Source: Ceratodon purpureus (Eukaryota > Streptophyta > Bryopsida > Pseudoditrichales > Ditrichaceae). From it: DNA of 64,000 bases. The position numbers were made by a program, and so were the translations under genes. The stretch is taken from contig CM026426.1 in NCBI GenBank assembly GCA_014871385.1, positions 108,012,070 through 108,076,069 on the forward strand, in the 5' to 3' direction. Below the pieces are notes generated by a model. That model did no database searches and was not told the origin of the DNA. It was given only the letters and a program-made list of their open reading frames with translations. Below, in pieces: positions 9,197-47,712 of the stretch (the stretch's first letter is position 1; the number at the start of each line of letters is the position of its first letter).

Positions 9197-9443
9197 GGGG
9201 TTGTGTGAACCTGAAATGGAGTCATTTGGGACTGTTAGGGTGTGCAGGACGGTGAGAGAACTTGTATTGATTAAACAGGTGTTCATGTGACGAACTTGTG
9301 ATGTTCAAGGTGACTAACTCGTTGCATTTTTCTTGCTACAGATGGAATTCTACTTACGGTTCCAGGCTGCAAATCCAAGGATAATCATTGGTAAGCGCAT
9401 GTTCGATTCATTCCAGCCTTTTTTTGTCAAAAAATTGAAAGAA

Positions 9444-9699
9444 ACACCATATTCCTTAAATTGAGACTTTTCATAGTCTCAATTTAATGCTTGACTTTAG
9501 ATTCTTCATTGATTTCTTGATTGATTCTATATTTATCAAAAACTTTTTTTACTATATATGGAAAGATTATCCTCCAGTCAAGAATAATCTTTAATTAAAA
9601 AGTAAAAAAAAAGTTCAAATTGTCTCAAAAAAATTGCTGAAATTGTAGTAAAAAAGTCTCAAAGTTCTGAAATTGTCTCAAAATAACGAATATGGTCAT
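9444..9699. mobile_element. 256-bp MITE inside transposase exon
   Basis: The ends read ACCATATTCCTTAAATTG and, inverted, ACCATATTCGTTATTTTG (15 of 18 match). It is flanked by AAGAA at 9439-9443 and 9700-9704. Removing the insert and one AAGAA (261 bp, 87 codons) restores the frame so that KLKE runs into RNVCCCIYHVE, exactly where the homologue has RRMREFNSCCCRYHVQ. It contains an 11-bp perfect hairpin, AAATTGAGACT/AGTCTCAATTT. Confidence 0.85.
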
Positions 9700-11507: not shown

Positions 11508-12571
11508 GGCTAATGCATTTCCTTGCCTTTGCCTTGCTAGTGCCTTGCCTTTTCAAGGCGAGGCACATTTTTTTATGGGACCTGCGCATTGCGGGTCCCT
11601 CCAATGAAAACCTCAAACTGGATTTCTTATACCAAATTAGCTTACTGTGTTTGAATAATTGCACTTGATCTACTTGTTGTGAGCACTGTAGGGAGCACTA
11701 ATATGTCAATGCATTCGTGGAATTTGATTTCTTCTCACAGCGAAGACTTAAACATCAATCGATCGATCAATGCAGGGTTTGATTGATTCTCTCCGGCCAT
11801 TTGTTGTAGGCTGCAGTAGTGCATGCATAGTCCCTGTTAGCTCATGCATAGTCCCTGTTAGCTCCCGTGTCCCATGTAGAGTCCCTGTTAGCTTATAGAA
11901 TCAGTCGTTTGGGGGATTGTCACCCTTTTTTTTCAGCAGTGGAACTTGCAAACAGTTGGTTTTGTTTACGTGTTTGGTGACAGTCAATGACGTGGAAGTG
12001 GATGTGTCTCGCTTTGTATTTTGGATTCTTAAGAGCGTTCATTTTTTCTTGAATTTTCTGCTTCTGAAGAGTTTAGGAAAGAAAAGCAAGTGGTTTTATT
12101 CTTCACAAAATAGGACTTACGAGATATATTCTCAATCCGTATGACAGACTTTGTTCAGAGGACGGAATTATTCATTGTAATCACTTTCTTGGGCTAAATT
12201 GGATGTAATTTCGTAAACCATGGACCTAAACTTTTAGCAAACGTTTCCAAGCAATCGAGTATAATGGGAAGAGAAGATAACCCGTCACTGCCAGTGAGTA
12301 TACAATTTCGCAATTCAGTCTAGTCTGAGTATCATGGATTCTCAAAACTGCCAAGTACCACCAAAAACTTACAAACACAGTCTCCACAAACGTCCTATTG
12401 TTTACGAAGTCCCGAGTACCTCCTTTCTAGAAAGTAATCCCAACTACAAAACAAGTCAAAACACTTATGTACAAATCAACCCACTCCCAACTACAAAATG
12501 GGATGAGTTCGACATCAACACTGACGTCTACTTTGCTGAGGCTGCGACCTTCTCCGCATCAACGCTGACGT
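11508..12571. other. convergent 3' spacer of element 1
   Basis: Noncoding interval between the transposase stop and the stop of the convergent RING gene. It holds short direct repeats (CCTTGC near 11520-11565; three copies of AGTCCCTGTTAGCT at about 11830-11892). A 44-bp unit (ATCAAC.CTGACGTCTACTTTGC) repeats at 12514 and 12558, reaching into the RING gene's last codons. Confidence 0.5.
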
Positions 12572-15343: not shown

Positions 15344-15892
15344 GTCTTTCTTTCAGGCTATGGCGTTAACCCTACTACCTGACACAAACTACAGCGAAAA
15401 ACTTGTGACAACTCCAAAAATATCAGTGTCCTGCAACTCTCATCAAGTTCTACACTGAGCTTCGTATGCAAAACTTCACGTCACGTTGCAAGCATCCTCG
15501 CATACTGTCCAGAGAGTGAGACAACACGCTGCCGTCAGCCGCCATCATCTCCTTCCCTCCCGCCCCTCCCCGTCACCACTCAAGCAGAAACCCTAGCCAC
15601 TCGATCAGAAACCCTAGCAGACGAACGGACACGATTTTCCGCTTAAACCCCGAAGCTCCCCTGTTCCCGAAGCTCTGTGGCGTATTATTCCTTCGAGGTG
15701 GCGGGAACGCGATATTCATTACTGATCGACACCGTCCATCTTTCCCTCCAACGGATCAATGGCGCCTGAGCGTGGGAACTTAATGATACGGTCTTGTACT
15801 GACAGCTCATGGGCTCATCAAATGCCAGCTTGTTATGGACTTCAAGTAACTCCCCTCATGTCGCCCTTGAGGCACCCAACCATGCATCTACC
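15344..15892 (-). promoter_or_regulatory. 5' region of the element 1 RING gene
   Basis: Two AGAAACCCTAGC motifs near 15587-15620 resemble plant telo-box promoter elements on the sense-equivalent side. No convincing TATA box. A tandem CCCGAAGCTC pair lies near 15648-15675. Array E begins beyond it. Confidence 0.35.
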
Positions 15893-16013
15893 CAGGCGCG
15901 AGCAGTTCGTGCGCGCGCATACGGGCGCGTTCCTGTGTTCACTCTCGCCAGGGGCAGGTGTGCGCGCGCACGGGCACGCACATTACGGGCGCCCGTGCAT
16001 GCGGGCGCGTTCA
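15893..16013. repeat. GC-rich array E (short)
   Basis: About 120 bp of GGGCGCG/GTGCGCGCGC units on the plus strand, including GGCGCGAGCAG and ACGGGCGCGTTC. It lies 550 bp upstream of the minus-strand RING gene at 15343. Confidence 0.75.
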
Positions 16014-27193: not shown

Positions 27194-29265
27194 TCAAGTG
27201 TTCGCGGATCCATGAAACCAAAGGAAGCATAGGCCTGGGCACATCGACCACTCTCTGCAGCCGTTGCACACCCAGAACGTGCGCCTCTTGCAGACGCGGC
27301 ATCTTCTTCGCAAGGATGACTTGGAGCTATGGCAAGGTGAAGAGCGCCTGGCTAGACTGGGACGGGCAGCGTGGCTTTACAGCGCCACTGGAAGATGCGC
27401 GGCTCTGAAGAGACTGTCCGTTGCATGAGGATCGCCAAGGTGTTACTGGCGCAGTTGCAGCAGAGAGACCTCCAGCCAAGCATGCTGCAACTCTGGGCGG
27501 GGAAAGTAAGCCACACTCCAGAGTGCTGGGTATTGGATCAGCGGCGGACTCAGGTGCAGGGGCACCATTCACCGATTCCTGAGATAGGAGTAAATCCTCT
27601 GTCTCTATGTCAGCTTCTTCATCTACGGGGGCCGTGCTGGGAACTGCAGTGGCCGAGACCGGGATGTCGACGGAGGCACCAGGGCGAGTTTGGGGGTTAC
27701 TCCCACTGTCTGAGACCAGAGGGCATCCCATGAGTTCGTGTGCGAGAACAAGCATAAACCTTTCGTGGTCCACCGGCTTCTCTGCGACATCAGTACAGAT
27801 ATGCTTGTACCTGAGATAGAAGTTAGTTGTGGCAGAGTCCAGGGCGAAGATGAACAAACGGTGCCACCATTTTTTTGTAAAAATCTGCGTGGTGTAGCTG
27901 GCCCGCAGTTGGTCTTGCGTGTCCACCCCTCGCATCATAGCCGAATACACCTTCTGGATGGGGCTTGTCGGAATCTCTATTTTCCCTCCACTTTGATGGC
28001 GGGTTGTTATCACCCCTCCCCTAATCATCAGGTCTGCCACAGTGCTGAGGAAGCTCACCCCCTTGGTGTCCTGCCAATGGATTACCGCCATAGTACGCTC
28101 CTTATGCATCCTGATTTCCAGCCAGCCCCTAGGCGTTTTCTCTGGGACGCACAGGCTTGTAGGAAATCCAAGCCGTCCCTGCCTTGCGATGCCCACGGCA
28201 TAGAATCCTCTCTTGAGCAGGTCGTTGAATAGCATGGGGCTCGTAAAATAATTGTCCATCACGACAGTGTTCCATCTCCCTTCCCATCCATTCGTCAACC
28301 TTGTCACCTCCCCTGCACCAGCTCCGCAGGCATGGTGAGGCAAGCCCGCAATGGCTTCATTTGCAGCCCCCACATATACCTCTAGATTGAGAACGTACTT
28401 CGTGACACTGCAACAGAGGCACCACAACTTGATGCCGTGAGTGATTGGTTTCAATGGATGGTATTGCTTGAAGGAGCAATACCTTCCATTGTAGGGCACC
28501 ATGGACTCATCCACACAGAGGTACGGAGAAGCATTCCATAGAGCTTGGAAATTCTGTACGAGGGCATCCAGTAGCCAACGGACCTAAGCAATGGGGTCGT
28601 ATCTCGGGTCCCGCTTGTCGTACTTTAGGGAGTCCTTGCTGGCTATGTGCAAACACTGGAGGATGTACAAGAACCTCTTCCGCCGCATGGTGGAAGCTAC
28701 GGGCTTGCAGCGCAGAGTGTCGCTCTGAATAGCCCAGAAGTCCCGCACCCTTGGCTGCTTTCTAACCGCCATGAGGACACATATCCCCAGAAATTGCCGA
28801 TGCTCCTTCAAGCCGATTTTTGCCTCAACGTCTCGTCCACCCTTTCGTTTCCCAGTAAGAGGGTCCACCCACTCGGCGTACGCATTTGACTCCTTCACGA
28901 TATTCCTTTGAATGGTGTCGCTCCAGATATCCAGGAAACATGTCACGGGGTCCAAGGCTTGCCGGTACAATACTTTCAATCCAGCCTTTGGCCCTGCAAA
29001 TTCCTCCCGGGGGAGTAAAGACCACGACTTGGCGTGCAAATTAGTGTCCGCTCGTACCTCGCCTCAAAGGCCTGATCCTCTTCTCTCAATGGTCCGTATC
29101 GGTACTGCCCAACGCCAGCCAACATGGCATCCGCCCCTTCCCCGCCACTGCCACCTGAATCGCCATCTGAAAACTGATAACCGCCCAATGCGCGTGGTCC
29201 ACTCCCGTCTCCTCTCTAGCCCCCTGCACAGTCCTGGCTCACGGCGTCTGGTATCCAATCGGGAT
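27194..29265 (-). pseudogene. piggyBac transposase, C-terminal portion
   Basis: Continues the frame begun at 47652 on the far side of element 2. It shows the three expected catalytic Asp contexts: VDESMVPYNGRY, VVMDNYFTSPMLF and GVDTQDQLR, each followed by conserved family text (KWWHRLFIFALDSATTNFYL after the third). The C-terminal cysteine-rich zinc domain is present but in another frame, at about 27305-27197 (RRCRVCKRRTFWVCNGC, then CPGLC and WFHG), ending at TGA 27194-27196. Lesions: TAG 29216-29218, a shift near 29040, TAG 28584-28586, and a shift before 27330. Downstream of the third Asp is a Ser/Pro-rich linker unusual in length. Non-functional but recently enough broken to read. Confidence 0.9.
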
Positions 29266-30039
29266 GGGGGGAAGCATCCTAGGATGTCTAGGTAGGAACG
29301 TCACACTGTCATTTCCTCTGAATTAGAGATTTTTGACCTTGTGATTGGGTTTAGGAAAAATGATTTTTTTTTATCATTGTATTCCAGCAAGTTCCAGCAC
29401 TCATTGTTTTTGCATAGTATGAAGAGATAATTAGAAATGATTGGTGTTTCGTATTCCTATGAGTTTAGTTTGCTAAAAAATTCAGGAATGTCACAATGAG
29501 AAGTCATACAGTCAGGAACTTGTTATAAGTACCCGGTGTGTTAGTTTTTGAGATGCATTGATTGGGTTGGGGCGTACAACGTTAGGCTACTTGATTTTGT
29601 TTTTTATTTTGCAATAGGCCAGAAACTATTTTTTGGGGGAATTTTCGAAATGGCCGCATCCTGGAATTATGAGGGCGCTGGGAGTAAGGAAAGGAAATTC
29701 GACTCTGATTTGTACTATTCCAGTTTTGGCACCTAGAATTTTCACTCCTCTAACGGCTTGCAATTGCTGATTGCCTGCGACCTATGTTCTCTAGAACTTA
29801 ACGACCATAAAGAATCTGGAAATAGGAAAAGGAAACGGTTGAATTCCAGTAAAGTCGTTCATTCCTAGGACCCTTAGTTCCTTGGCCACTTTAAATCTGC
29901 GCCGTTAGATCGTAATCCAACTGCATGTGACGACACCACGGTTGGGATACCGTCTTCTCTCTCACCTGGGTTTCCCTGTCGACACTGTCCGCGGCTGCGT
30001 GAGTTCCTGCGCAGTTGAGTTATAGGAAATTTTGTAAGT

Positions 30040-30345
30040 ATGGGTTCACGACGAAGTTCTTCAACTGCTTCACAAGCGTTGATCACTGATTTTTTTCAAC
30101 AAGAGAGAGTGACAGAACGTGAGGTTGACGAGTGGTTTTTTTATCAGACGTTGATTACTGACTTCTACAGGGAGAGGGAGGAAACAGTAGAAGTCGATCA
30201 ATCACTTTCGGAGCGTAGCTTCACTGATTCAGAGTTCCATAGCGTTCTGGACATAGAGCCACAAACCCCAATCTCACAGTTAAGTTTGAGATACTCAGAT
30301 TGCACTCATGTTTCCGAAACCCCTGAAATAGAGTTGCAAGACTGA
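30040..30345 (+). CDS. element 2 small protein with two PCNA-binding (PIP) boxes
   Basis: ATG at 30040, 101 residues, stop at 30343-30345. Residues 12-19 read QALITDFF and 36-43 read QTLITDFY. Both satisfy the PIP-box pattern Q-x-x-(I/L/M)-x-x-aromatic-aromatic, and both have the Thr-Asp at positions 5-6 that defines PIP degrons. The first also has Arg at +4, as in p21-type degrons; the second has Glu there. The rest is acidic and Ser/Thr-rich, probably disordered. A donor-like GAG|GTAAGT follows at about 30399, so the ORF may sit in the transposase 5' leader (upstream ORF) or be its own transcript. Family knowledge: such motifs bind PCNA and can recruit CRL4-Cdt2; the role here is inferred. 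Confidence 0.6.
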   Translation: MGSRRSSSTASQALITDFFQQERVTEREVDEWFFYQTLITDFYREREETVEVDQSLSERSFTDSEFHSVLDIEPQTPISQLSLRYSDCTHVSETPEIELQD

Positions 30346-30880
30346 ACTTCGGTTTTGATTCGGAGGTTCAGTCCCAGATGCGTAAATGCCTGTGGTGAGG
30401 TAAGTGCCGAATTCATATTTTGGAATGCCTAATGGGTTTTTGTCATATTTCATTTAATTTTGTTTTCAAAAATTTCGTAGTCTCTAATCATGACTTCCTT
30501 TTTTGCAGGTAAAAGGTTCGGTACCTAATCAGGAAGGAAGTATGCTTGCGGTGGTTTCTGTATGATGAAGTTCGAAGTAGATTAGAGCTCATGAATGTGC
30601 CTGCTAAGTGATGCATACATAGAGCAGTATTATATAATCTTAGATAGGTTGTCAAAACGTTAATGTCGAGTATATGAGTGGCTGGGGGTAGATACTCCAC
30701 CGTTGACTCTCTTTAATAAACTAGCTACTGCATTCCAATCGCTGAAATCAATTTGTAGAGTTGGTCGACTTCCTATGCAGCCGGTGACTTTGAGCAGGCC
30801 TTGTGGTTGTCATCGTTACGATTAATATTTCAGCAATTAGGATCGTTAGTTATATCTGTTCTTCTCTAACAGTTTTTAGG

Positions 30881-33800
30881 ATGGCTCCTCGTAGAGATGA
30901 TAGACGACTTGGAGAAGGTAGCAGAGCCCGATTAGCTCTTCAGGAAAACTTAGTTTTGAAAAGGGAGAAAGCGGCTCTCAGACAGAAGAAGTGCCGAGAG
31001 AGGAGGAAGGAGATATTACAGAGGGTGTGTCAGGATAGTTTAGAGAGTGATGTTAGTGTGGTCAATATCCAAAGGTCATCTACTCGTGCAGCAGAGGATT
31101 TAGCTCTGAGATGGTTTGATGAGACAAGTAGCAGGGGAATAGAGTATCAACAAGCCTTGCTACCAAAGATTCTCAAACACAGTATTTGGCGTAGTGTACT
31201 CCCTAATTACTCTAACATGGAGGTAGCTTACAGTGCAGTGTCAAATATTTCTCAAGGATGGCAGTATGTTAAAGGTGGTCATTCCAGAGACCAACAACGA
31301 GCCACGAATGTGATCATTCCCATGCTTCTAAGTTCGGGTGGTATTAGTGCTAGACAGACCAGTTTGTTGACAGGAATTCACAGACGAAACTTGAAGTCGG
31401 GTTTGGTGAGGAGGCTAGTGTTAGAGTCAAAATCTGATAAAAGTCTTTGGGCAGTTTGTGGACGGCAAAGGCGAGTTGATTGTCTACCTCCTCATGTGAC
31501 GAAGTTGGTAGAAGACTTCTGGACAGCAAACACCCGAATCAGCCCCAACAGAAAAGACGTCGCAAGGAAACGTATTGGTGTAAAGGAGTGGATTTACCAC
31601 CCCACACATCATCTCACCGAATCTCAGGTCAGTTAATTGATCACCTTGTTTAGCCACAGTGTATGGTAGAATAATGTCCAAGGTACTAGTATAAAAACTC
31701 TGCAAATAACATAGATACAGTGACTGGTCGATGCAGCCTATGTTACTTAGTCTCGGCCCTGAGCTATAATCCAGGAGTAGTAGTCTTTTGAAAAAAAATT
31801 GTTGTATTGTTCTAGTCTAATTCGTTTAGACAGTACTGCATTCCGTTAGTTTCTAGTTTTATCTCCAGATAATTTATCCACATTTCAGTTCCTCGGTTCA
31901 TTTTGATATTTCATTGGGTTAATTGATTAACATAATATTTTACAAGCAATTGAAATAAAAGTAATGCTGAAGTACTATCATGTTCACTATGCTCATCAGG
32001 AGACGATGCAGTGAGGGCAGCCACTGTTACTTCATCTTGGACACGATCTATAAGAAACGGAAAGTAATGCCGATGAATTATAGGAACAGTCTTGTCTAGG
32101 AATTAAAGGAACCGGAACTCAAGGAACAATAATGCAAGGAACAGTAATGTCTAGCTAGGAATTGAAGTCCTCATGTTTAGGAACGTTAATTCTAGGAACA
32201 GTTATGTAGTCCTAAGAATTCAAGTCGTCATGTATTTTTTAAATTTTTTATTTTTGCCTCAAAAGAAAAGTCTATTGCAAAAGAACAGTTCATAAGCCCT
32301 CATTGGGCGAGAGACAGGGCGTGGGTAGTCGTCATGTATTTCAATTCCTAGATTCATTCTAACTTTTTTTCCTAACAAATCTTGTGGATTTTGGCTCTTC
32401 AGCTTTCCTTCTACACGCGATTCAGAGTAGCACACAGTGGCGTCGAAATTGGAGTGCGATCTTTTGAGTCACTGAAACCTTGGTTTGTGCGGAGGATGCG
32501 GGAGTTCAACAGTTGCTGCTGTAGGTACCACGTGCAGATGGCTGAATTGAAGGATGCACTGAACTTCATGCGCCGTGGAACAGTGCACAAGAATTGCTCT
32601 TGCCAGTGTGAAGTGTGTCGACCAGAGGGTGGACAGGGTGAATGTAAAGCATCAGAGGTGACTTTTCAGTCAGTTACAAGACTCTGTGAAGAAGTTATGT
32701 GCCCAAAGCCCGAAGAAGAAGAGTTCCATGCATTCAGTTGCATTCGGGGAGATTGTACGATGTGTGGGGCTACGAAATTGAAGATTTGCCCCAACGAACT
32801 GTCTGGATGTACGAATGCTCTGGTTTCCTGGAAGCTGTTTGAGATGGTATTTGTAGGGAGAGGAGAAGACGGAAATGACAGGCATGCACTTCGTCTGGAG
32901 CACAAGTTGACCCCACCGTGTGACTTGGTATCATCTTTGCGGTCCCACTTGGAAGAATTTTTGGTCCACAATTTTGAGGCAAAGTGGCAGGATCAACAGT
33001 TCAAGGTATGCATGGGCAACTTAAGTCCTGATGCAATTGTTTCAGTTGTAGATTTCGCTGAAAACTATGCATTCAAGTGGCAGAATGAGGTTCAGTCCCA
33101 GCATTGGTTCAGTTTTCAGGTGTCAATCTTGGTTCATATTACATTCCGAATTCATCCTGAATGGGACGGGTTGGATCCTGAGAATAAGATACTCACGGAG
33201 TATCATTTTTATATCAGCGATGACAAGTCCCATGATAACAACTTTGTCCAATACTGTTTTGGGCTTCATAGAGATTTTTTGAAGGAACAAGGGTTTCTTT
33301 TCCCAGTGGAGCACATAGTCTTCTCTGATGGCTGTGCCTCGCAGTTTAAATGTGCGAAGTCACTGTATTTTGTTGCCAGGTATCCTTCTCTAACAATATC
33401 GGAAGAGTTACCCCTCGGTTGTGTGATGCAATGGAATCATTTTGGTACTGGTCATGGTAAGGGTCAGTGGGATGGAGCAGGGGCTCACGTGAAGGAGGCC
33501 CTGCGCAGGGAGCAAGTGAAGCCTGATGGAGTGCGGCTACATAACTCATCTGATGTGGTAACTTTCCTGCGTCAAGCAATGAACCGTGAATATGCTGGTT
33601 ACCACAGTGCTCGAAGATCAGTACACAGACATTTCTATGATGTAAAAGAGGCTGACGTGAACCAATTCCAGGCTCCAAATGCTCGCACTGTAGAAGGTAC
33701 CAGATCATTTCACCAGGTTAGAAGTGTTGGATTAGAGGGGACATCATTGCAGACCCGGCGACTATCTTGCTTTTGTAAGTTCTGCTTGGACGGTGGCGAT

Positions 33801-34337
33801 GGACCATGCGATAGTGTTGGGTTTGTTGAACCTTTCACTTTGATCAGGCTAGAGCCTTGTGAGCCCCAGACACTAACAAGGCGTGATAGGGCGCGTCTTG
33901 ATGCTCAGGAGAGTAGACTCCATCCCCGCATGAGTGCTCGAGAATCACTTGCTGCCACGTTGGAGGTTGGTGATCACTTTGCGGTTCTAGCAGATGACGG
34001 ATCCGGGGTTCCTGAATTCTGGATACTTCAGTGTCAAGAGCCCTTGCATGGCGTCGAAGAGGATAAGATGGAAGATACCTGGGGTCAGACAGTGTATCGT
34101 GGGGAGCAAATTGTGATTGGGACTTATTATAAGCGAAGGGGTAGTAGCAGAACATCTTACATCAGGGAAGACCCAGGCAGACCCGCTTTCATTTACTCTC
34201 ACTTGGTAGTGGCCACGAAGTTTGACTTACCAGCAGCCACGCATCGTCAGAAAGGAGGACGTGGAGGTACCCAGGTGTACAAACTCACCACCGAGGCCCA
34301 AGATCATATCCACTCTCAACTCTTAGTAGTTGACTAA
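30881..34337 (+). CDS. element 2 transposase, unassigned DDE-like superfamily, intact
   Basis: Exon 1 30881-31627 (donor GTCAGT) and exon 2 32403-34337 (acceptor GGCTCTTCAG) join in phase 0 to give 893 residues. Residues 1-50 are basic with a zipper-like helix (KKCRERRKEIL). About 165-249 carry RQTSLLTGIHRRN and SPNRKDV. From 285 there is a Cys cluster (CCCRYHV, NCSCQCEVC, CIRGDCTMCG). Then come VVDFAENY (Asp466), ISDDKSHD, SDGCASQFK (Asp558) and FGTGHGKGQWDGAG (His600, Asp606). The order matches the element 1 protein throughout. Asp466 and Asp558 are the likely first catalytic acids; the third is uncertain. The 775-bp intron has AGGAAC-type repeats. No stop or shift is present, so this copy may encode active protein. 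Confidence 0.8.
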
Positions 34338-37074
34338 GGAGTTCAGATATAGTACTCTGGCCAGGAGATTCATGATACGTTTATGGCCAGCAGTTGTTTT
34401 AGTAGCTTGCCATGATGTAGTGGAAGTTTAGGTGGCTTAGATTTGTTTAAATTTTAGCTTGGAGTGGTTTGTTTTGGTCATTTGCAACAGTGCTATGTAT
34501 GTAGGATTACAGTAATGGTAAATAATAATTAAAAAAATGGATTTTGCTACTATCAGTTCCCGTACAATTGCAGTGGGTATTTAAGCAGAATGAAATGACT
34601 TCAATGGATTAGGGGATTCTCGTTTTTGAATACAGTACTGAAATTTGGAGAGCGCATACCAGGGACTAATTTCAATACCATATCCACATACAAATGAACC
34701 ATAAGAGGCCAGCATTGTACACAATCAAAACACATCCAACTTTAATGAAGTACATCCCGTCTGGATGAATTTATGCTCAATCGAATGAATATTGACACTA
34801 CCAGAAGAATGAAACAATTCCATTCCTACGAGTCCAATACATGATGATTTCCTTGGTACCAGGAAACCTTATTTCCTTTGCAATTGTAAATAGGAAGGTC
34901 TTTCGTTCTTAACCAATCTACTTTAAATCCTGATTATTTTCCTCTTATATTTATGTTTTTTATTATATTTTTCTAGCATGTGAAGGGATAGGATGTCATC
35001 CTGGTCTATTTTTTTCCTGGTTACATTACCCCGTAAAGTACTATTTTGGGGAATATTCCGTTTTCTAACCAATGTACGAATAATTTTTTAACATTTTTTT
35101 AAACTTTCATGAAAAGGTTGTCATCCAAGACACTCTATTGTTGGTTATATTTTTGCGACGATCAAGATTATAAATTTAATATTTTTTATCCAATATGATG
35201 TATGTGGACTTATTCACCAGTGTCACATGCCTTGTATAATTATTATGGGCATGAATTAATGAAAAAAATACTATTCCGTAGATTGGATCAGGGTCTTCAT
35301 CTGTAGATTGGATCAGGGACTGCCTTCAATATTATTAGAAAGAAATGAAAGTGTTGGACATTCAACTCAAGGGATCATGAACTGATTAGGACATTGAAAT
35401 AAGACCCCCCTTTGAACATACATAAGTGTGAAATTGGTAAAAACTCTACAACTTAGGAAATTAGGAAATGTGTGCAAAAGATAAAAAGTCGCCAAATTAG
35501 GAAAAGAGTCTGTTTAGGCGAAAAGGGAGTGCAAATATTTTTAAAAAATGGTCCTCACGCGGACATGAAACCGGCTCCTATTTAGTTTTGTATTGTGTCA
35601 TGTTGGAACCGGTCCCCGCACAGTCTGGGGCGACGTACGTCACTCCACTTGATTTCTCTCGTCCCAACTCTGAACTAGGACTCGGTTACCAACTGACGAG
35701 AGAGTAACAGTAAAAATCCATTATATTACCGCAGCAGGGTTACATTGCAATCAATATGGGATAAGTTCAATCTAAACGTGGTTTAAGGTAGGATCGAAGA
35801 AAGTCAACAGTGTGTTCAAATCTATGCGTGTCGTAGATTCCTTACTGCTCGTTCCTTGAAATGATATACTGATTTTGCCGAAACCTAGATTTACTATCTT
35901 GGATGTCTACCATGACATCAAATTATTGACAGTGGGTACATTTCGAGAAATCAGTGTATGTAACTATTATTTCGAGTGGATAACTTTTCAATGTAAAACC
36001 AGTGACCAATAGTGCACTCAGATTTGCTTAATGTATTAATCCAATTTGTATTTACTTGTTTCACAGTATACAAAGAATGACCTTACAAAACTTAAGAATA
36101 ACATAAGAAACCATAACAGGATTATGTTGTTCCTCTTTTTGACTTCTCAATTCTCTTAGTTATAAATATCTTTACTACTTTCTAAGAACAAACCTAGAAT
36201 TATGTGACTCTAATCATGGGCATATGTACCAATATTGTCTAATTTTACAATTATTTATACAGTCGTTTATCAACCTCGACACTTGGTAATATTTTTATAT
36301 TATTTACCTTTGATACTATTTGAAGGAATATTTTAATTACGAGCCAGTATAATTTTGCCACCTCACATTGTTTTTTTTTTCTTATATAACAAGGGGAATA
36401 TGATTTCATTATTAACTCTATATATTCTTAGTGTATTGTCCACTTAAATTACTCAATAAGAATATATTCTATTTTATAGCCAATCTAATTATGACATGTG
36501 TCTTTTTTATTTTTATTTTGTTTTATTTTTATTCATGCTTCCGAGGGTATGATGTCATCATTGTTTATTTTTTGTGAAGACATTGCGGGGTATGATGTCA
36601 TCGTTGGCGCTCTATATTGGTCTTCTATTGTCCACCTACATTACTATTAAAAGGAATATAATATACGAAAGTATATTCTATTTTATAGCCAATCCAATTA
36701 TCACATGTGTCTTTTTTATTTTTATTTTGTTTTATTTTTATTCATGCTTCCGAGGGTATGATGTCATCATTGTTTATTTTTTGTGAAGACGTTGCGGGGT
36801 ATGATGTCATCGTTGGCGCTCTATATTGGTCTTCTATTGTCCACCTACATTACTATTTAAAGGAATATAATATACGAAAGTACATTCTATTTTATAGCGA
36901 ATATAATATTTTCACATGTGTCTTTTTAATCTTCCATTTATGATTTTCAATCTTCCTTTTATGATTTTCAAGAAATACTTTCACTGATCTCCAATCATAT
37001 TTTTCTCCACCCCTTTTGCAATAGATTGCTGCAACAATAAGCAAAGTAATTGGGAATTTGGTGTCATTCTTTGC

Positions 37075-37147
<73 letters not shown>

Positions 37148-37759
37148 TTACAATTTATATTTGTAATTAAAATAGTATTTTATTTCCTAGCCAATCAAAT
37201 TATTACATATTTATCTATGTTTTCTTAACCTTTGGGAATATTTATTTCTTTTCCTAAATTTCCCGCCATGTCGTCCCTCTAATTAGGAACTGCCACCTGT
37301 ATCTCCCGCGTACTCGTGGGCCAATCAGATGGTCCCACTGTGTTCCCGCGTTTTTTTTGGCGCACCAGCCTCACTACAACATCCATGTCCACGTGATACC
37401 CGGAAGATACTCTGCTGGTACCATCCTAGTACTTAGACAACACCTGGGTAATACCCGGTTCTTTTTCCCCCCCAATACCCGGTTCGTCTTCCCCCCCAAT
37501 TGGTTTCCCAGGATTCCACGCAGTAGTGTTCCTTGTACACGCCGTTCTCTCTCCCTAGGGTTTTGTTTAGTTGTTTCTCAGAGTCTGTGTTGGGTTTTGG
37601 GCGCACTAGATTCTCTAAGTGTTTTAGCTAATTGTGAGAGAGGTTTGTGGGTTTGTTGTGCAAATTGTTTGCTAGATTCAAACTGTTCGTGTGAGTTTTC
37701 TAAAGATTACAGTTAGGCATCAAGGCCCAAGGAATAGGTGTTTGTGTGAGTTTGGTACC
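34338..37759. repeat. AT-rich intergenic part of element 2 with tandem repeats
   Basis: Two near-identical 209-bp units (CATGCTTCCGAGGGTATGATG at 36534 and 36743) follow a more diverged unit at about 36380-36520. A (TA)n tract occupies 37078-37145. A plant-like promoter region follows: a CCAAT motif at about 37320 and a duplicated TACCCGGTTC...CCCCCCC block at about 37455-37500, upstream of the coiled-coil gene. No supported gene. Confidence 0.6.
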
Positions 37760-40700
37760 ATGGGATCACTTCGGGGGCCACTACTTCTGATTTCTCGTGG
37801 TCCGTGTGTTTTACAAACCTTACTAGAGATTCCGCATGCCATGGTGGACAGGTACGTGGAAGCCGATTTTCAAAACTTTCACATTTAATTTGTACTTCAT
37901 TTGCACTTGAATCGCTGGTTTTTGGGTTTCACTTCATTCCTAGGATTTGGTTCTAATCATTGCACTTGATGTTGGGCTAGAAGGAGGTACGGGTCAATGG
38001 ACAGCCCAAGCCGTGGCAGAATTAATTGGATGCGACACTTTGGGTGTCGGCATCCATTATTCCGTGGTCGTCTCTCTCTTTGGATTCTTGGAAAGGAGCT
38101 GGAGTTCTTGGCCACATTGATGTTCTTGTCGTGGTGTGCTTGGTTAGTGCTCTCGAGGTTGTGTTTGATTCCAAGTGATTCATGTTAGTATTTCCAGGAC
38201 CTTGAGCTTTGTGTATCATTTTGCATAGAAGATGTATTGCTTTTGGGCCACGATCCTTGTGTTATAGTGCTTTCATTTTGAGTAACACTTACCTTTTTCC
38301 TTCACTGTCATCGTTGGCAGGGTCCGGAGTCACGCATTTCTCCACTGTTCACCAAATGCTTCAGCTCCTAGTCATCAGATAGTTCAAGGATTACAAAGGT
38401 GAGTTTGTAAGTCCACATGTTAAGTTTTCCTTTGAGGTTATGCACTTTGGAGAAGAAGTCCTTTAGCTGTGACCTTCCAAGGAGATTTTAGCGTGGAAAT
38501 CTCTGTACTTCCGGGTCTAATGTGATGCAATAGGAAAACAGTACATAAAGTAGGAGATCAGAATAGCATCAGTAAACCATTGTCGTGTCCAGTAGCCATT
38601 CCTTGCTCCTGATATGAATTTTCGTTGGATTTTCCTCTTGCACTCCTGGATTTGCAGTGGTGGTCCTGTTCCGGTGTATTCGCTGGAAACATTGTCCGGG
38701 TCGAGCATCCTCCACAGTTTGCAAGGAGTATGCAATACTCCTCCTCCTTTTCAGGTTTTATTTTTTCTATCAATGTCCTTCTTTTGATGTCGATCTCCTG
38801 GCTTTCATTTTTTATTTACTGGTTCCGGTTTTTGTCTTGGAGTTACTGGTTTCATCCTAGGAAGTCACCTCCTTCTCACTTCCTACTGTTCCTTCGTAGT
38901 CGTGGTTTGCGGTCCTTTTTCCTGAGCATACCCTTTTCACAATTAGCGTTCCTTTTTCCTTGCCAAGGTTTGGACTTGTATCCGTGAATGCGGTCTTCAT
39001 TTCCTAAGTCCTTAGAATTCCAGTGTAGGAGATGTTCACATTTTCCTTAGTCCTTTTCCAGCACCCGTAACTCCTGTTCTAGATTACTGAACTCCTGTCA
39101 CCAGATTCCGTAGCCTTTATTTCCACGTTCCTTACTATGAAAGTATTTCCTGGCTAGGATCTAGTCTTTTCTTTCATGTCCTAAATCCTGGTCTAGTATA
39201 TCCTAGCTAGGTTCCTGTCCTATCTTTCCAAGTTGAATACTTTACATGCGAATGATACTTCTGATGTCAATGTTCTAAGTAGATGAAATGAATTCTCTGA
39301 TTTCTTACAGTATTCGTTGCCCCTGTTTCTTACACTATTTCAGGGCTTCAAACGACATCAGCATGGAGACTTTCTACTATCCCGAGAAGGGTTGGTTCAA
39401 ACACGTCACCAAGCTGAATGCGACTGGACTCATCCCTGGTAGCACACTGACTGAGCAACATGTCAGCAAAAAAGAATGCAAGATAATGTTTCATTATGGT
39501 GGAGATCGATCGAACAACGGCTACAGACTCAACCCCCACTGTACCTTTTTCAACAAAAGATTGCAATGGCTTTGGCTTCGGGTTCATCAAGTGGAGAAAC
39601 CTGCAAATAACGACTTCGGACTTGCATTTGCCCAGGCCCTGATTTATGAGTATAACACTGGGGAAGAAGTGGACTGGGCTGAACTCGCATTTCGCACCGT
39701 GACACGTTATTGCAAAACCAGGGGCACGAAACAGGTTCATCCTCTCTGGGCTTGGGCCCACCCCAGCGTCACTATTAATCTTCAGACTGGTGTCCCCGTT
39801 GGAACCAATTACCACTTCCCCAACACTCCAGGCTCCAGAATAATTCAGCTGTCCTCTTATCCCCCCGCAGTAATTTCTCAACTCACTCTCCTTGGTTTTC
39901 TTATATTCTGTTTGCCTTTATGAGTAAGTTATAGATTGTAGAAATATAGAAAACCATGTATGAATCTATTTTTTAGGATCTTAAGTATGAACCTAACTGA
40001 AGTACACATTTACTTTTCAGGATCTTTCCACGCCCAGGCCTGTAACACGTTCAACACAGAAGGTAAAGCGAGAAGATCCTTCTTCAGCAGAAGACTACTC
40101 TGACGACGACAGTCACACGGGTAGGCAAAAGAAACGCAAACGCAAGCAGATGGCAAGATACGAGAGCCCCTGTCAAAGATCTGGGCAGCCTTCTGCTCTA
40201 AATATGGGGTCCACATCTATGCATGTTACACAGTCAGCACCGGAATCCCCTCCCAAGAGCGAGACAAAGGACACGGATCAGCTCCTCACTACGCCTACTG
40301 AAAGCAATGATCTGAGGTGAGTTTAGACCGTACTTAGTATCCTGTATTATCATGTTTCACAAATTCCATTGATTCCCAACTTGTATTACTGTTTAATGTT
40401 TATTCCATTGTTTTCCATTACTTAGTTTAGGTGCCCATGTCTTTCTTCACAAATAACATAACTAACGTTGGGTGTTGTGCAGATCTGGGATTTCACGTGG
40501 AGAGACGTTTGAAGCTCCACTACCTCCAACAGTCGTGGCTGCCATCATGGAGTTCAAGAAGGAGATTCTAAACATGTGTGAAACAGTTATTAAGGACCTT
40601 GATCTTTGAAGGTCAGAGCTCCAAGTGAAGCTTAAAACTTTGGGCGATCAAGCATTCTTCGCAAACTGGACTCAGAGCGAGCTAAACACTGAACTGGACC

Positions 40701-40919
40701 TAGCTAATCGGGCTCTTGTTGAAAAAAATGATGATGCGACCCAAGGTGAAGTCCGGTATCTACAGTCAGCTCTCAGATGTGCAGAGAGCAAGCTGACAGT
40801 CGCTATGGAGAAGGAGAAGGAAACATCAGACACATTGACAGCTTTGTGTAAAAAAATTGAAGAGAAGCGCAAAGCTAACGGGATACTACAGGAACACTTC
40901 CAATCCTGTACAGGACCAG
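37760..40919 (+). pseudogene. element 2 cargo: coiled-coil protein related to the RING genes, one in-frame stop
   Basis: Five exons join in phase by GT-AG rules: 37760-37851, 38321-38398, 39344-39869, 40021-40316, 40483-40919. Exon 3 encodes a Trp-rich domain (FYYPEKGWFKHVTK, EVDWAELAFRTVTRYC, HPLWAWAHP). Exon 4 is disordered with a basic KKRKRKQ nuclear-signal-like cluster. Exon 5 is a long coiled coil. TGA at 40607-40609, following DLDL, interrupts it and fits CGA-to-TGA. After exon 5 the next acceptor (41033) leads to two stops within a few codons, so no RING domain is present. The domain order copies the RING genes up to their zinc finger, suggesting a truncated or specialised paralogue. 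Function unknown. Confidence 0.55.
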
Positions 40920-42390
40920 GTACGTATATTTTGAACTGGTTCTGAATTATTTAGTGTTGTATGTTGCCTTGTATAATTCTGCCCATCTACTTACAATTCA
41001 GTAGAAATTCTTGACATACGTTTGGTTTCGCAGTTCTTCGTTGAAGTTGAAGATCAACATCAGTCACCGACATAGGCACATGCCTGGGCCAAGGATTTCA
41101 GTACTTGTTACAAGTTCGTTTGTCGTGAAGGATGTGATTTGTAACTCATTTTTGATCTACAGACAGAGGGACCCTTTGTTTCTCCTTACGGTTTGTAAAT
41201 TTTGAACTCAGCATGACATGAGTATCTAGTTCCTTTTTGTTTTGCTTACATAGACTCGGTTGGTGTAGTACATAGGATATAATAGGCTAGTCAGTGACAA
41301 ATACTGTGTGTTCAACTTTTATCCTAGAAAAAGTAAACAGTATAAACACATTTCAATTTACAGTGGATGCTTATTATGAAAGCATAAATGTTTGGATATC
41401 TAATACTCTGGACAGTCATGGAGAATCTTCTCTTAGATTAGTATGCGTTTACTGATTCTGTGCAAGTAGAGCTTACAATTCTATTCATGTGTAGCTGCCC
41501 TGATGTCTCATTGTGCTTGTAGGGAACGTGTGTTTTTTTTTACAGTTGGGTGTGGGTTGATCGTAGACTTACAGTGCCCTATTGTACTTATGCTGAGTGA
41601 CAAGGAAAGTAGCATTGGACATTCATTTCGTTGATGATCTGATTAAACAAATACAGAACAGTCTGATGCTATTAGAAATTGTTTAGTTGTAAGTCTTGCT
41701 CTCATGTTATGGACTTGAAGTCGAAGATTTTAGATCCTTACCTGATTTTCATTAAATTGTGACATTGCAGTCTTGTGCAATACAAACTTCTTTGCATTTG
41801 TATCATGCTCCTTGTTTTTGAAGTTTAATTTTGCTAAATAGAAATGCTTAGTGACAAACAGAACATAGAGGCTGACTTGTATAAAAAACCATTGAAAACA
41901 TCTAGCGCTTCTACCAACGAATTCAGAAAACAATAGCACTGTCAGTCTTGGCCGTAGACATATCAACAAAAAGTCAACGGTTCTGACTTACCAAGGAGCA
42001 GGGATGGTTTGCTTCGAAGTGGTACGACAAGTCACTAATATTGTCAAATGAATTAGCAGAGAAAATTGTGTTGTCATTGGCAGTGTGTTGTACAATTTGC
42101 ACAAACAGATATGCAAGAAATTCTTTACATTTTGAGGAACACACCCAAATCACTCTCAGCTGTGGCTGGGCTTAACTAACTATACATTAATAAGTGTACA
42201 CTCCAATAAAAGAAACTGCCTCTTATTAAAAATGTGGTCTGTACATGGCCTATTCATTTTCAAAACATCAAACAAGTCTTTCAAACTTGGACGTTATTTC
42301 TGAACCAAGTTAACGTGAATAAAAAACAAACTTTGATTACACCAGAAGTAGCTAAAATCGAACAATGAATCTGAAAAAAGGTTCTTCTAC
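40920..42390. other. convergent 3' spacer in element 2
   Basis: Noncoding interval between the plus-strand coiled-coil gene and the minus-strand double-RING gene. No repeat or RNA gene recognised. Confidence 0.4.
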
Positions 42391-45300
42391 TCACTTTCGA
42401 TAACTACTCCTTTTGCTTCTACCAGCCCCAGATTCTTTCGTGATCGACTGGGCTTGCTGGTCAGCCAGAAGTCGCAAAACCTCTTTCTTCTGGGATGTCA
42501 CCAAGACAAGAGTCTTTCCATCCTTTCGCAAATTTCTCTTGGGACAGTTACTAGGCTCAGTCGGGTTACGTCGTTTTGAGATGATTCTTGGTCGATCCTC
42601 CACATTGCTATTGTCTACCTTTTTAGTGAGTGTTGGACAATCACCTTCTTCATTCTCTACATACTCTGGAACTTCCTGGACCACTAGCTCCGCTGGACTG
42701 ACTAGAGTAGGTGTTGACTCGAATTCTAATCTATCGTCAGCCCTCGCAGAACTTTCTAAATCCAACACTTGTTCAGTTTCAAAAATTTCTTGAGCGTTAC
42801 CCTCCACAAACTGTACATTGTCCTCCACAGGAATGTCACCGCCACATGTGTCTTCAGTACTAGGGCCCTGTTCACCAACAATTCCTTGTCTTTCTACACC
42901 AGCAGATAAGCGTCTTGGTTTGTTTAAAACAAACGTTGATGGCGTGCTCAGTAGAGCCTCCTCATCATCGGAGGATGATTCATCAGAACCTGACTCCAAA
43001 TCCGGTTCTGTACCTCCAAAGATCTCCATGCTTGCATTACTTTTTAGCCTAGTACCATTAGACCTACTAGGTGTAGCCTCGACGTCAGGATCGACACTAG
43101 AATTAAAAGCGGAACCTAAAGCCAAAGGTTTCAGCTGACATCTCATTTGCGCATCTTTAGATCCCTCCACGGTGGTTGAGCACTCAGGACAGACCAGAAT
43201 TTCATTTGCACATGTCTTGCAGATTCCATCGTGCCCACAAGGCTGGTTCAAGAACAACAGTTTTTTGTCAAAGGACCACAAATTATTAGTATTTAAACTT
43301 CCATGTAAACAACAAAATAATACCACAACTAACAATATTGTAAGCTTTGTAAAGTCCATGATATTACCTCTAGAGCAAACATGACAGGGTCAGCTTGGTG
43401 GCATATGGAGCATGCAATCTTGTCTTCAGAATCTTGCGAATTAATTGGTGAAACAAGCAAACTGTTCTTCTGTCGAGCGTCCCCCCAATCTCCATCAGTA
43501 TTAGGTTGTTGTAGAGCTGGCGAAGCAGATTGTATATCGCCAGCGTGTCCTATTGGGTAGTCAGAATCCGCTGATTGGACATGTATACAAATCAGTGCAA
43601 AGCAATGCCACATCAACCACTGTCAGTGAAAGGAATACGTATTTTCATGATTTAATTCCTGGAATAGGAATCTAATATAAATCACTATAAATCAAGTAAA
43701 CAAGTTCCTACTACAAGTACTTATCCTTTTCGACTAGGAGATTTGACTCCTGGAAAGAAAGAGTTGTAGGAATCCTAAACCATACAGGACATAGGAACCA
43801 AAACTCTCGCAGGAAGACAAGGAAAATAAAAAACATAGTAGTATTAATCTCCTGTTCCAAAAAATACTTCCAAGCACACAGGAAAAATAGCAGATACGGA
43901 AATTATGCTCCTGTGAATACTGTAGTACCCAAGGAGACACTCCTTCCGTAAAAGGAACTGATCCCGAAGGTACTCATTTACAAAGGAAAGTCTGTGAAAC
44001 ATGAAATAGGAAAGGAAGAAATGGGAACAAGAGCATGGAATGATGCATTCGCCAGTACCACAGTTCCCAGGAAAGGAAGGAAAAAATCATGACCGAGTAC
44101 TAGTGAAAGTAATCCAGTAAGGAAAGAAAGGAACATCTAAAGTTTCTAACAAATTTCAGAGTGGGTTCAGGGAGTTACCGATACTACTGGACAGGATACC
44201 TGTTATTATCCTTGGAAATACATCGTGATGCAAGTACTTGAAAAGAATTCAAGGAACATGGCATAGGAATCACTAGGAATTCCATTCCTTACTGTACATA
44301 TAGTAAGTGTCCGTTCTAAACGTCCCATGCCTCGGTACAGTCAAAGAACTAACAGTAATGAATGACAGCGGAATAAAAAAAAAAAAAATCTTTAGGAAAA
44401 TTTTTTGATGCAAAGAAGAGGCCCTTGGTTGCAGTAGAGGAGTCTTACCAGACATTGCAGCAACGTTTGGGCTTCCAACTGCTGCATCGGTAGAAGAAGG
44501 TGGAGCCCTCTCTGGTTCCGTAAAGCCAAACGATAGTCGCCACTGCGAATCAAATTCCTCGTTGCAAAACTTAGCTATACAGGTTCTAGACTTCGAACAA
44601 AGTGAACTAATGCAGAAAGGATGGTAGCAGTGTCCACAGGAGGCAACAACGATGTCATTGCAGTGAAAATGTTCCCCACAAGCAGGACAGTTTTCCACGT
44701 ACACTATGTTGGTTTTCTCATGATCTTTGAGCCTCTCTATTGGTGTCGGCCTGAAACTATCCAAAATACCTGCCTTGAGTCTAGTAAGATACTCGGATAC
44801 AGAGACAAGAAACTTCTTCGTACAAAGCTGGCTCTCAAGTAAAGAATCATATCGCTTTTGAAAAACTTGCATTCCCTCGTTACACCTCTCATAGTCTGCT
44901 ACAGTAGCTTCTAATTTCAAACGTGTCTGTCTACTGTTCCTTTCCTCACATAGAAGTTGTTGCTGCAAATCTGCAACTCTAGTTTGCAAATCCTCCTCAC
45001 TTTCCTCTAAACCAGAAGTAGATGATAGGTCTAAACCTTCACTCCCTAAGCAATTTGTCCACTGGTCGACGTACTTAGAAGACTCCTCTAATGCCAACTT
45101 GACTCGCTGAACCTCCGTCAATGCCTCGTCAGATAGACTCTGCCTATCATCCCGCATTAATTTAGCACGCCTAAGCTCTAACTCCTTATCGTCCCTCTCT
45201 CGTTCTAAAACCTTCAACCTTTCTTTCCTTGACAAGTAGTAATTTTGTTTGTCTACTAACAAGTGGTGTACCCTTGTGATAGTCTTCTCCACTGCATCAG

Positions 45301-46009
45301 TGATGGCAGTTTGCTCTGAAGCAGTGAGTAAACCGCTAAGAGAAACTCTGACACGACGTCTGCTAGAAGACGCAGACTCCATCCTCCCCTTCAAACCTAG
45401 AGGACGACCAACACGGGATGGCAATGGAACCGATGGACAGGGAGAAACACGAATAGGTGGAGGTTCTCTAAAGCCCGAATGGCTTCCTATACCAACGTCA
45501 ATAGTCACGGCAGAGTTGGGCTCGGAATTTACAGGAAGTGTTCCTAATCCATTTCCTGGGACTCCTACACTGGGGACTTGAGAGACCACAATAAAATCCG
45601 GACCAACTCTACCGTTCACTCTCTTCTGGGGAACACCGAGTTGTTGGGACCTGGCCTTTCTTGTTAATATCAAATTCCGTCGCTTGGAACTTGCAGCAAC
45701 GGCATAGGCTGCCCAGTTAACTTTGATTTTCTTTGACTCAGCAGCGACACCCCTTGCGAATTCTAGAGAGATGGTGTCATTCATAGAACGAATGTCCTTT
45801 CGAAACACTCGGCGGTAAAGGTCACCAATCCACCGCTGGGACTCAGTAGTCACACGAGGAGGTAAGATCTTCCACCCATTCTTATCAAACCGTGTGCCAA
45901 GAAACTGTGTGATTTCTTCTATAGTTACAACGGTATCCAATGTCTTCACGATAAGTCCATCCCCACGGAGACCCTGCCATTTAGTGAAGTACTCTAGGTC
46001 GTAAACAAC
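42391..46009 (-). CDS. element 2 cargo: coiled-coil protein with two RING fingers
   Basis: Three exons join in frame: 46009-44449, 43570-43368 and 43242-42391, all GT-AG (phases 1 and 0). Earlier exon(s) with the ATG are not identified. Order: a globular domain with KVNWAAYAV; a disordered Pro/Arg region; a long coiled coil (about 45290-44800); a RING-H2-like site (CPACGEHFHC, SCGHCYHPFC, CIAKFC); then a canonical C3HC4 RING assembled across the last intron (CSIC from exon 2, PCGHDGICKTC and CPEC from exon 3). An acidic disordered tail ends in KRSSYRK. C3HC4 RINGs of this type are usually E3 ligases; a chromatin or replication target is speculation. No lesion is visible. Its position opposite the transposase copies element 1. 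Confidence 0.75.
43660..44270. repeat. dispersed AGGAA(C/T) motif cluster in an intron of the double-RING gene
   Basis: Dense short AGGAAC/AGGAAT/AGTTCC motifs without fixed period. The same vocabulary fills the transposase intron (about 32050-32220), the region upstream of exon 3 of the coiled-coil gene (about 38840-39240, inverted) and both element 2 ends (GGTAGGAACG near 29292; GGTTCCTTGGTTCCTAG near 47300). Confidence 0.55.
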
Positions 46010-47329
46010 CTACAAAAAGGCACATTAAGCCAAGCAGTTAGCAAGAAGTATGTAATGAAAACAAATCTGTGAACATAGTAACGAAGCTGACTAAGTCAAA
46101 TAAAAAAACATATCAGAGAAAATGCATGAGTGTTACACGTCATTTTCAGAAACACATCGACAACAGAGAATATTTAAATTATACCCAGATTCCTTCCTTC
46201 GAGATGACATTAATTTCAGTGACTCAGAATTCTAAAGACTACTCTGAGCCTTTCTAAGTGACCACGAGTTGTAAAAAAAGGCTACTCTCTATAACAGGTT
46301 TGCAACCCACTATATAGACCATGAAAAACACAAATTCGAATCAGTACCCAGTACTTGGCACCAAAAAAAAATTCCACTTTCTCCTTTACCTGCTGTTATT
46401 CATACAACGTGCATTGTTAAATCATTACTAAATCACTACAAAGGCTATCAAGTGCAGGTATACAAGATAACGAGGGACGACAATACTGCTCAATTCATCT
46501 ACATTCTGGGACAACCTAAACCGAAAAAGAAAACAACGACAGCTTCTGATACAACCCAATGCTAAATCACTGTGTACTACAAGGGGATCTTTAAAATGCG
46601 GAATTGAGTCATTCCAGGCTCTCAAAAAGGAGTTCACATTTATGAAATTGACGTGTAACATGTATCCACACTGAATTCTGGACCTAACCATTTTCCTTTG
46701 ATTCTTAACCTATCAGCAGTATGAGAGAAAATGGGAGGTCTAAGCAAACGAAAAAATTCGAGAACCCACTGGGTCGAAAAGGGTGAAAGCAGCAGGCATC
46801 GACAAGAAGACAAAGAAAAGACCCACTGCTTCCCCTACGTTTTGTGATTCGAGTTTTGATCTTAGAACCCAACAAGATATCGTAAGGAAAATTCTCAAGT
46901 CAGGTACTGAAAAGCACAAACAACAGAAGCAAAAGATTACCAAATCCATTGCACATGAAACAACGCACAAAGCTTGGATATGCAACTTTGTGAATTGAAA
47001 AGATAGTGAAACATTACCTCTTCGCTGGGGCTCTAATATCGAAGGTGCTTAGAGTCGTTGCTACAAACATTGAGAGCCGTAACAAAAAGCCAGAGAATTG
47101 TGATAGAGAAGGAAAGAGCCGATGCGACACCTACGGCAAAGGGGAGCAAGCCAAACAATGAAGCACAGCTTGAAACCCTAGACATGCCTGAACCGTTTCC
47201 CAAGGATAAAGTTGAGACTTCCTGGTTTCCTAGGTCCTGGACCAATAGAAAAATTGCATTTTATTGTTACGTTTTTATCACCAGTACCCCCAATTTCCTT
47301 GGTTCCTTGGTTCCTAGTGGGCCACCTCA
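46010..47329 (-). other. 5' region of the double-RING gene and right end of element 2
   Basis: Should contain the first exon(s) and promoter. A telo-box-like AAACCCTAG lies near 47170. Short open frames on both strands have no homologue I recognise, so none is called. Confidence 0.35.
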
Positions 47330-47344
47330 AGGATGCTTGCCCCC

Positions 47345-47670
47345 GGATCCAAGTCCTCGGTCTAGCCGCTTGCGCTTGATGAGCCTCTGAGTGGCCTCAA
47401 CCCGGCAGCACCAGCCAAAGCATCTCCGACTGGCTCCACATGATCCGTCAAGAGAGCAAGCATGTCGAGCAGCGTGCATGGCGTGGGCAAGGCCTTTCGC
47501 ACCAGTCCATCGAACCCCACCCTGTCCTGTGCTGTAAGAGGCTCAGGAACCCATGCGCGGCAACCCTCACGCCGTACCTTCTGCACTACGAAGTACTCGC
47601 CAAAGTCCACTTCGAAATTTGCCCCTCCAATGTCATCCGATTCCATGCTCATGACACATCCAAATACCTG
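47345..47670 (-). pseudogene. piggyBac transposase, N-terminal portion
   Basis: Frame open from an acceptor at about 47665 (TGTCAACAG) through ATG 47652, with TAG at 47362-47364, reaching the element 2 junction with TEDL. Across the junction it continues as DPDWIPDAVSQD at 29260, the acidic N-terminal style usual for piggyBac transposases. The segment contains an acidic stretch (GANFEVDFGEYF) and a Leu-rich helix (LLDMLALLTDHV). The TAG is preceded by GGC, as is the TAG at 29216-29218; both fit CCAG-to-CTAG change. Confidence 0.7.
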
Positions 47671-47712
47671 TTGACACGGGTTGTGAATTAATCCCCCCCC
47701 CCCAAATCATGT

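Follow-up and report, generated by a model that had tools for sequence, protein, structure and literature searches.

The window analyzed here is a stretch of 64,000 nucleotides from the moss Ceratodon purpureus (C6:108012070-108076069). Positions 29266-47344 of the window are a complete, recently mobile DNA transposon of 18,079 bp. The element encodes a predicted transposase and, convergent to it on the opposite strand, a protein with a RING domain. The family of the window element is referred to as family A, and related families are designated B to E. The element is made up of the following features.

29262..29265, no strand: left copy of the target-site duplication (TSD), GGAT; related unfilled sites show a single copy
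29266..29280, plus strand: left terminal inverted repeat (TIR), GGGGGGAAGCATCCT; its first base is identical in 11 of 11 copies, the window copy included
30881..31627, plus strand: predicted transposase exon 1, 249 codons, ending in ...TESQ and then gt; the intron position is the same (LESQ/LETQ) in families B and C
31628..32402, plus strand: transposase intron of 775 bp (CAG/GTCAGT ... TTCAG/CTT), predicted from sequence
32403..34337, plus strand: predicted transposase exon 2, with a Cys/His-rich segment, D466, D522/D523, D558, HGKGxxD606G, and CFCxxC
36463..36927, no strand: 209-bp tandem repeat within the element
39288..39923, plus strand: open reading frame (ORF) of 211 amino acids (aa); residues 37-137 match the N-terminal domain of the RING family (expectation value, E, 2e-10)
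42391..43359, minus strand: ORF that contains the latter half of a C3HC4-type RING (Pfam zf-C3HC4_3 at E 1.7e-5, slightly under the gathering score)
44273..45949, minus strand: RING cargo ORF of 558 aa, convergent to the transposase, with an N-terminal domain, a probable coiled coil, and a RING
47330..47344, minus strand: right TIR, GGGGGCAAGCATCCT read inward
47345..47348, no strand: right copy of the TSD, GGAT

The two ends of the element are inverted repeats, GGGGGgAAGCATCCT, and are identical at 14 of 15 bases. End pairs were scanned with the left end in 28500-30881 and the right end in 45950-49000, requiring a 15-bp TIR with at most two mismatches and an identical 4-bp TSD. The scan yields exactly one pair (29266/47344), compared with a mean of 0.05 pairs in 20 base-composition shuffles. 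Transposase exon 2 matches at least 74 places in the genome. Ten other copies were compared at both ends: the exon 2 matches listed second to tenth, and a copy on C4. The termini of all ten coincide to the base with those of the window copy, and the ten are 18,332-19,545 bp long. A perfect 4-bp TSD is present in nine of them and is different each time (GCGA, CCCA, TGCG, TAAG, TACA, CATT, TGAG, TGTT, and CCAT), so that 10 of 11 family-A copies carry one when the window copy is counted. The left end reads GGGGGCAAGCATCCT in seven of the ten, compared with GGGGGGAAGCATCCT in the window. No common target sequence was found among the family-A insertion sites. The inverted ends and the 4-bp duplication had been proposed in a preliminary description of this DNA, and the single scan pair and the shared termini of the ten copies bear them out. 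Non-autonomous copies were not found in the window, where four end-like matches with at most three mismatches (chance expectation 1.4) include the element's own two ends.

The element is inserted in a piggyBac-like repeat whose left flank, 28766-29265, matches 21 places, itself included. A remnant of this type lies beside the element.

27327-28514, probably with 28584-29039, minus strand: piggyBac-type transposase remnant (DDE_Tnp_1_7, E 1e-43, for 27327-28514)

Two related piggyBac-like copies, C2:18157500 and C6:110227183, span the joined flanks at 71% and 68% identity, respectively, with gaps. Where the window carries two copies of GGAT, the first has a single GGAT and the second a single GGGT. 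A single site copy across the joined flanks in two related repeats represents the unfilled target site. The exon 2 protein of the C2, C11 (two), and C12 copies differs from that of the window by 0.3-0.5% and has no stop, and full-length open copies at 99-100% protein identity are located on C2, C6, C11, and C12. Near-identical open transposase copies on C2, C11, and C12 indicate that family A moved recently. The element has defined ends, duplicates 4 bp of its target, and has been mobile.

The two predicted exons join at consensus splice sites into a transposase of 893 aa with no stop. Both the intact protein and its residue numbering had been described correctly from the letters alone: D466 (DFAENY), D522/D523 (ISDD), D558 (SDGC), and D606 (HGKGxxDG). 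Seven sequences of families A, C, and E were compared, and the acids shared by all of them include D466, D522, D523, D527, D558, D606, and E619. D466 in D(F/Y)AENY and D558 in SDGC would be the natural first two catalytic acids. D606 (HGKGxWDGAG) was chosen as the candidate third acid, in line with the description of Sola transposases as DDD. The transposase is under purifying selection. Its ratio of nonsynonymous to synonymous substitution rates (dN/dS) is 0.055 between the window and C4 copies, 0.059 and 0.077 between the window copy and two more diverged copies, 0.059 between those two, and 0.085 for a family-C pair. Where dS is finite, the five subfamily pairs range from 0.055 to 0.085, and three wider pairs are saturated. 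Viral or prokaryotic relatives of the transposase were not found by single-protein search, by tblastn in phages, or by alignment. A degenerate motif pattern likewise gave none, and its 13 chance loci were inspected. A literature search by short transposase motifs found no paper with these motifs in the library covered.

The RING of the 558-aa ORF has the form C-x2-C..C-x-H-x2-H-x2-C..C-x4-C, which is the same in the family-B and family-C genes. A profile was built from three proteins of families A, B, and C; the best of 300 shuffled decoys scored E 0.4. In 10 of 10 other copies, no stop interrupts the 558-aa ORF where it is aligned. Its last ~34 codons, after codon ~524, are in a different frame in eight of these ten, which points to an indel or a splice at this place in either the window copy or those eight. 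A weak NCBIfam bacteriocin match of this ORF (E 0.011, below the cut-off), located on the Cys-rich RING, was set aside.

The preliminary description listed three cargo genes. Three ORFs of at least 200 aa are present besides the transposase, though two of them, as delimited, are probably not genes in their own right. The ORF at 39288-39923 matches the N-terminal domain of the RING family only. The ORF at 42391-43359 probably covers part of an exon of another RING gene that is split by an intron; the first RING half (CSIC..) is found directly upstream, past a probable intron near 43360. This C3HC4_3 RING differs from the profile RING (profile match E 0.39). The covered part of the ORF has no stop in eight of eight other copies with whole or partial coverage.

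The linkage of the cargo to the transposase was examined with 37 near-full-length family-A transposase matches (of at least 74) and 50 RING matches (of 80 listed), the rest being fragments or members of other families. At 33 of the 37 transposases, the closest RING gene lies downstream in convergent orientation within 60 kb, and at 26 of the 37 it does so within 20 kb. Random placement gives 0.4 within 20 kb, with a maximum of 4 in 500 trials (sizes of five contigs assumed). The RING gene belongs to the element and is not a chance capture in one copy. A transposase-linked convergent RING gene may be new, within the scope of a literature search that was not aimed at RING cargo in transposons.

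The RING gene diverges far faster than the transposase. In the copies at C1:28.50M, C1:24.18M, and C8:10.29M, the transposase is 91% identical to that of the window and the RING protein 49%. The copies at C3:4.31M, C1:1.69M, and C6:105.85M have 88-90% identity in the transposase and 74-75% in the RING protein. Fast evolution or cargo exchange between lineages would both explain the divergence. Measured against the C4 copy, dN/dS of two cargo ORFs is 0.25 and 0.35, above the transposase value for the same pair and below 1.

Family B is represented within the window.

6764..15893, plus strand: family-B element of 9,130 bp, TIR GGGTAGATGCAyGGTTsGGTGCCTC (23/25), TSD AGGC
7667-8452, ~9342-9443, and 9702-11507, plus strand: predicted family-B transposase exons, broken by TAA at 10266-10268
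13802-15352, convergent: family-B RING gene

The family-B ends come from a single copy and were chosen by repeat length among eight scan pairs, two of them of the same repeat, in a scan that required a TSD. The family-B transposase aligns to that of the window at 37.5% identity over 613 columns, with H in place of D606. The transposases of families B and C are 37-43% identical to that of the window. The family-C element at C9:10.40M is 11,120 bp long, with ends GGGTGwAAGCAGGCT and TSD CTCA, and is the sole pair in its scan. Three more two-ended family-C copies have the TSDs CACA, AACA, and AATA, and the right end of a fourth falls outside the sequence stretch read. A TSD is therefore present in four of four two-ended copies, one of them found by requiring it. 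Ends of the form GGGNNNAWGCA are common to families A, B, and C, and the intron is at the same place in all three. Co-transmission of the RING gene with the transposase is likewise observed in three families. Family D (C11, C4) has an extra intron and keeps HGKGxxDG. Family E, of which one transposase was read, is ~50% identical to family C and was seen on 12 of 13 large contigs; it is apparently the most widespread branch.

A search with the family-B RING gene covered families A, C, and E. Among the matches listed, 8 of 73 RING matches (of 123) are within 20 kb of 101 listed transposases. This is a weak test. Random placement gives 1.2 with a maximum of 6; six of the eight are downstream and convergent, and the other two are neighbors of different families.

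Some 40 family-E matches were listed, most without a stop, on contigs that include C7, C10, C13, C8, and C12. Six RING genes are located 4-8 kb downstream of, and convergent to, family-E transposases. A further RING ORF of 621 aa (16781-18646, minus strand) lies just outside the family-B element, with a RING profile match of E 1e-6 and a Pfam zf-RING_2 match of E 0.024. No element of its own was found for this ORF.

The window element is very likely a recently active, autonomous-looking cut-and-paste transposon of ~18-19 kb with a RING partner gene. The transposase would most likely bind the GGG...GCA ends and excise the element by DDD catalysis with D466, D558, and D606. The element would then reinsert with a 4-bp stagger at targets that share no fixed sequence. 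The RING protein would most likely serve as a ubiquitin ligase or adaptor whose target is either the transposase or a changing host factor with a role in silencing or repair. Plant transposons carry anti-silencing genes, e.g., VANC of the Arabidopsis VANDAL elements. As in VANDAL elements with VANC, a fast-changing extra gene is kept next to a conserved transposase; unlike in VANDAL, the extra gene has a RING domain, predicted from sequence, instead of VANC.

Several observations weigh against this reading. The gene models are predictions from the DNA. The transposase has no significant match in Pfam, NCBIfam, PHROGs, or PDB sequences; the best Pfam match (E 0.016) is at chance level and unrelated. 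Single-sequence structure prediction gave a mean predicted local distance difference test score (pLDDT) of 32, and no catalytic fold was seen. A family-wide alignment had been proposed as the way to find the third catalytic acid. In the alignment of seven sequences, D606 and E619 are invariant to the same degree, and E619 may be the third acid instead. For the window copy and the near-identical C11 copy, dN/dS is 0.138, a value derived from six changes. One of the ten other copies, at C6:78.03M, has no matching TSD (TACA versus ATAA). All Pfam RING matches are below the gathering score: zf-RING_2 matches the family-C protein at E 5e-4 and the family-A 558-aa protein at E 0.29, and it does not match the family-B protein, so that families A and B are at chance level. 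Four of the 37 family-A transposases lack a RING match up to a distance of 60 kb, and for seven the match is only at 21-56 kb. In the copy at C2:4.31M (90% identical), the RING gene is 50 kb off; the 19 kb read downstream hold only a 28% same-strand match to the RING cargo, and the right end was not found in them.

The RING gene could instead be a functionless captured host gene that hitch-hikes with the element, its fast divergence being neutral decay. Such an origin would account for a RING identity of only 49% in copies whose transposase retains 91% identity, and for cargo dN/dS values of 0.25 and 0.35 where the transposase has 0.055. It also agrees with the family-B search, in which 65 of the 73 RING matches have no listed transposase within 20 kb, though no family-B transposase was among those listed. 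Neutral decay does not fit a 558-aa reading frame whose aligned part stays open in all ten other copies, RING ligands that are conserved across three families, dN/dS below 1, or a convergent position kept at 33 of 37 transposases. A functionless passenger is therefore unlikely, and a RING gene maintained as a partner of the transposase is preferred.

The superfamily is probably Sola, an assignment that compares the element with published descriptions and not with a named Sola sequence. Sola elements are described as having a DDD transposase, a 4-bp TSD, and TIRs of 11-1124 bp; most are 2-9 kb, some exceed 15 kb, and they occur in Physcomitrella (PMC10741241). The 4-bp TSD, the variable TIRs, the three conserved aspartates, and the moss host of the present elements agree with this description. 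Their lengths (18.1-19.5, 9.1, and 11.1 kb) and TIRs (15-25 bp) are within the Sola ranges. Sola2 elements of two amoebae are described with a transposase of 888 aa (in one of them), TIRs of 12-13 or 21 bp, and AT-rich 4-bp TSDs (PMC3627910). The 893-aa transposase is similar in size to the one described, whereas the TSDs here are mixed (GGAT, GCGA, CCCA, TGCG, and others), which counts against Sola. The Ectocarpus Sola1 element of 21.5 kb is described with an accessory gene on the strand opposite the transposase (PMC12477816); the window element resembles that description in its giant size and its gene arrangement. The RING protein differs from the cargo described for Sola (Fanzor, methyltransferase).

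The preliminary description had left the superfamily unassigned and had named Sola and Ginger among those compatible with the 4-bp TSD. An unassigned superfamily is not supported: nothing found excludes Sola, and its 4-bp TSD, size, and TIR range fit. Ginger has a TSD length compatible with 4 bp. Its transposase is described as resembling Gypsy integrase (PMC10741241), and Ginger was set aside because none of the 11 aligned sequences, fragments included, has an integrase-core (rve) Pfam match.

It is improbable that the element is the published Lanisha superfamily (Maumus, McDaniel and Carey, Repbase Reports 2020), a CACTA/EnSpm-like (CMCT) transposon. Lanisha was proposed as a new cut-and-paste superfamily, and TSDs of 2-5 bp are compatible with it. 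It is placed in CMCT, for which the description gives C(2)C and H(3-4)H between the second D and the last E, and mostly CA..TG ends (PMC12730594). The present element is likewise cut-and-paste, has a short TSD within the allowed 2-5 bp, is abundant, and is enriched on a giant contig. Lanisha presumably comes from Ceratodon, so the host is probably the same. Two of the Lanisha authors, Carey and Maumus, are on the Ceratodon genome preprint as well. The motifs point elsewhere. One C-x2-C is found 146-150 residues past SDG in seven of seven sequences (families A, C, and E), and in six of the seven no H-x(3-4)-H follows it. Family E has HIDAH, without conservation across families, and three family-A sequences carry HFGTGH ahead of the C-x2-C. 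The ends of families A, B, and C are GGG..CCC, not CA..TG. CMCT was set aside because the C(2)C and H(3-4)H pattern and the CA..TG termini were not found, a separation made by described motifs and ends and not by Lanisha sequence.

A superfamily of its own, outside Sola and CMCT, would be defined by DFAENY, SDGCxxQFK, and HGKGxxDGxG, by GGGNNNAWGCA ends, and by the RING partner. This distinctive anatomy is common to three families, and no library model significantly matches any of the 11 aligned transposase sequences, four of which are fragments. The silence of the libraries says little, because those searched may hold no Sola model, and the gross features tested fit Sola. A separate superfamily is thus unlikely, and Sola is the preferred assignment.

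Left ends of family A were counted across the genome. C6 carries 28 of the 40 scored, compared with its 30.5% share of the genome (110,524,308 of 362,488,568 bases; binomial p = 3e-7, with copies treated as independent). C6 is probably a sex chromosome. The C. purpureus genome is described as 360 Mb, with sex chromosomes of >100 Mb each that make up ~30% of it (PMC8000587). Preferred insertion and slower removal on a low-recombining chromosome would look alike in such a count. The enrichment bears on the growth of such chromosomes. A more far-reaching proposal is that the element represents a distinct giant plant superfamily, with a RING partner directed against host silencing, that helped build a giant moss sex chromosome; this is speculative and improbable as a whole.

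A family-A left end is also located at C6:108088363, ~12 kb to the right of the window. The RING ORF of this copy, at C6:108104198, is 100% identical to that of the window and shares its frame, unlike most compared copies. This copy is perhaps the result of a local hop or a duplication.

Giant DNA transposons with extra genes are already known, e.g., the Ectocarpus Sola1 element. The interest of the moss element is a RING gene that travels with its transposase, rather than a proven new superfamily. Co-transmission is backed by a count over dozens of copies and recurs in three families, so that the idea of a RING ligase encoded by a transposon can be tested. Near-identical full-length copies are present on several chromosomes, and activity is therefore directly testable in laboratory moss.

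Elsewhere in the window, an ORF at 58160-58957 (minus strand) carries DUF4216 (E 4e-10). DUF4216 is often a neighbor of plant CACTA transposases.

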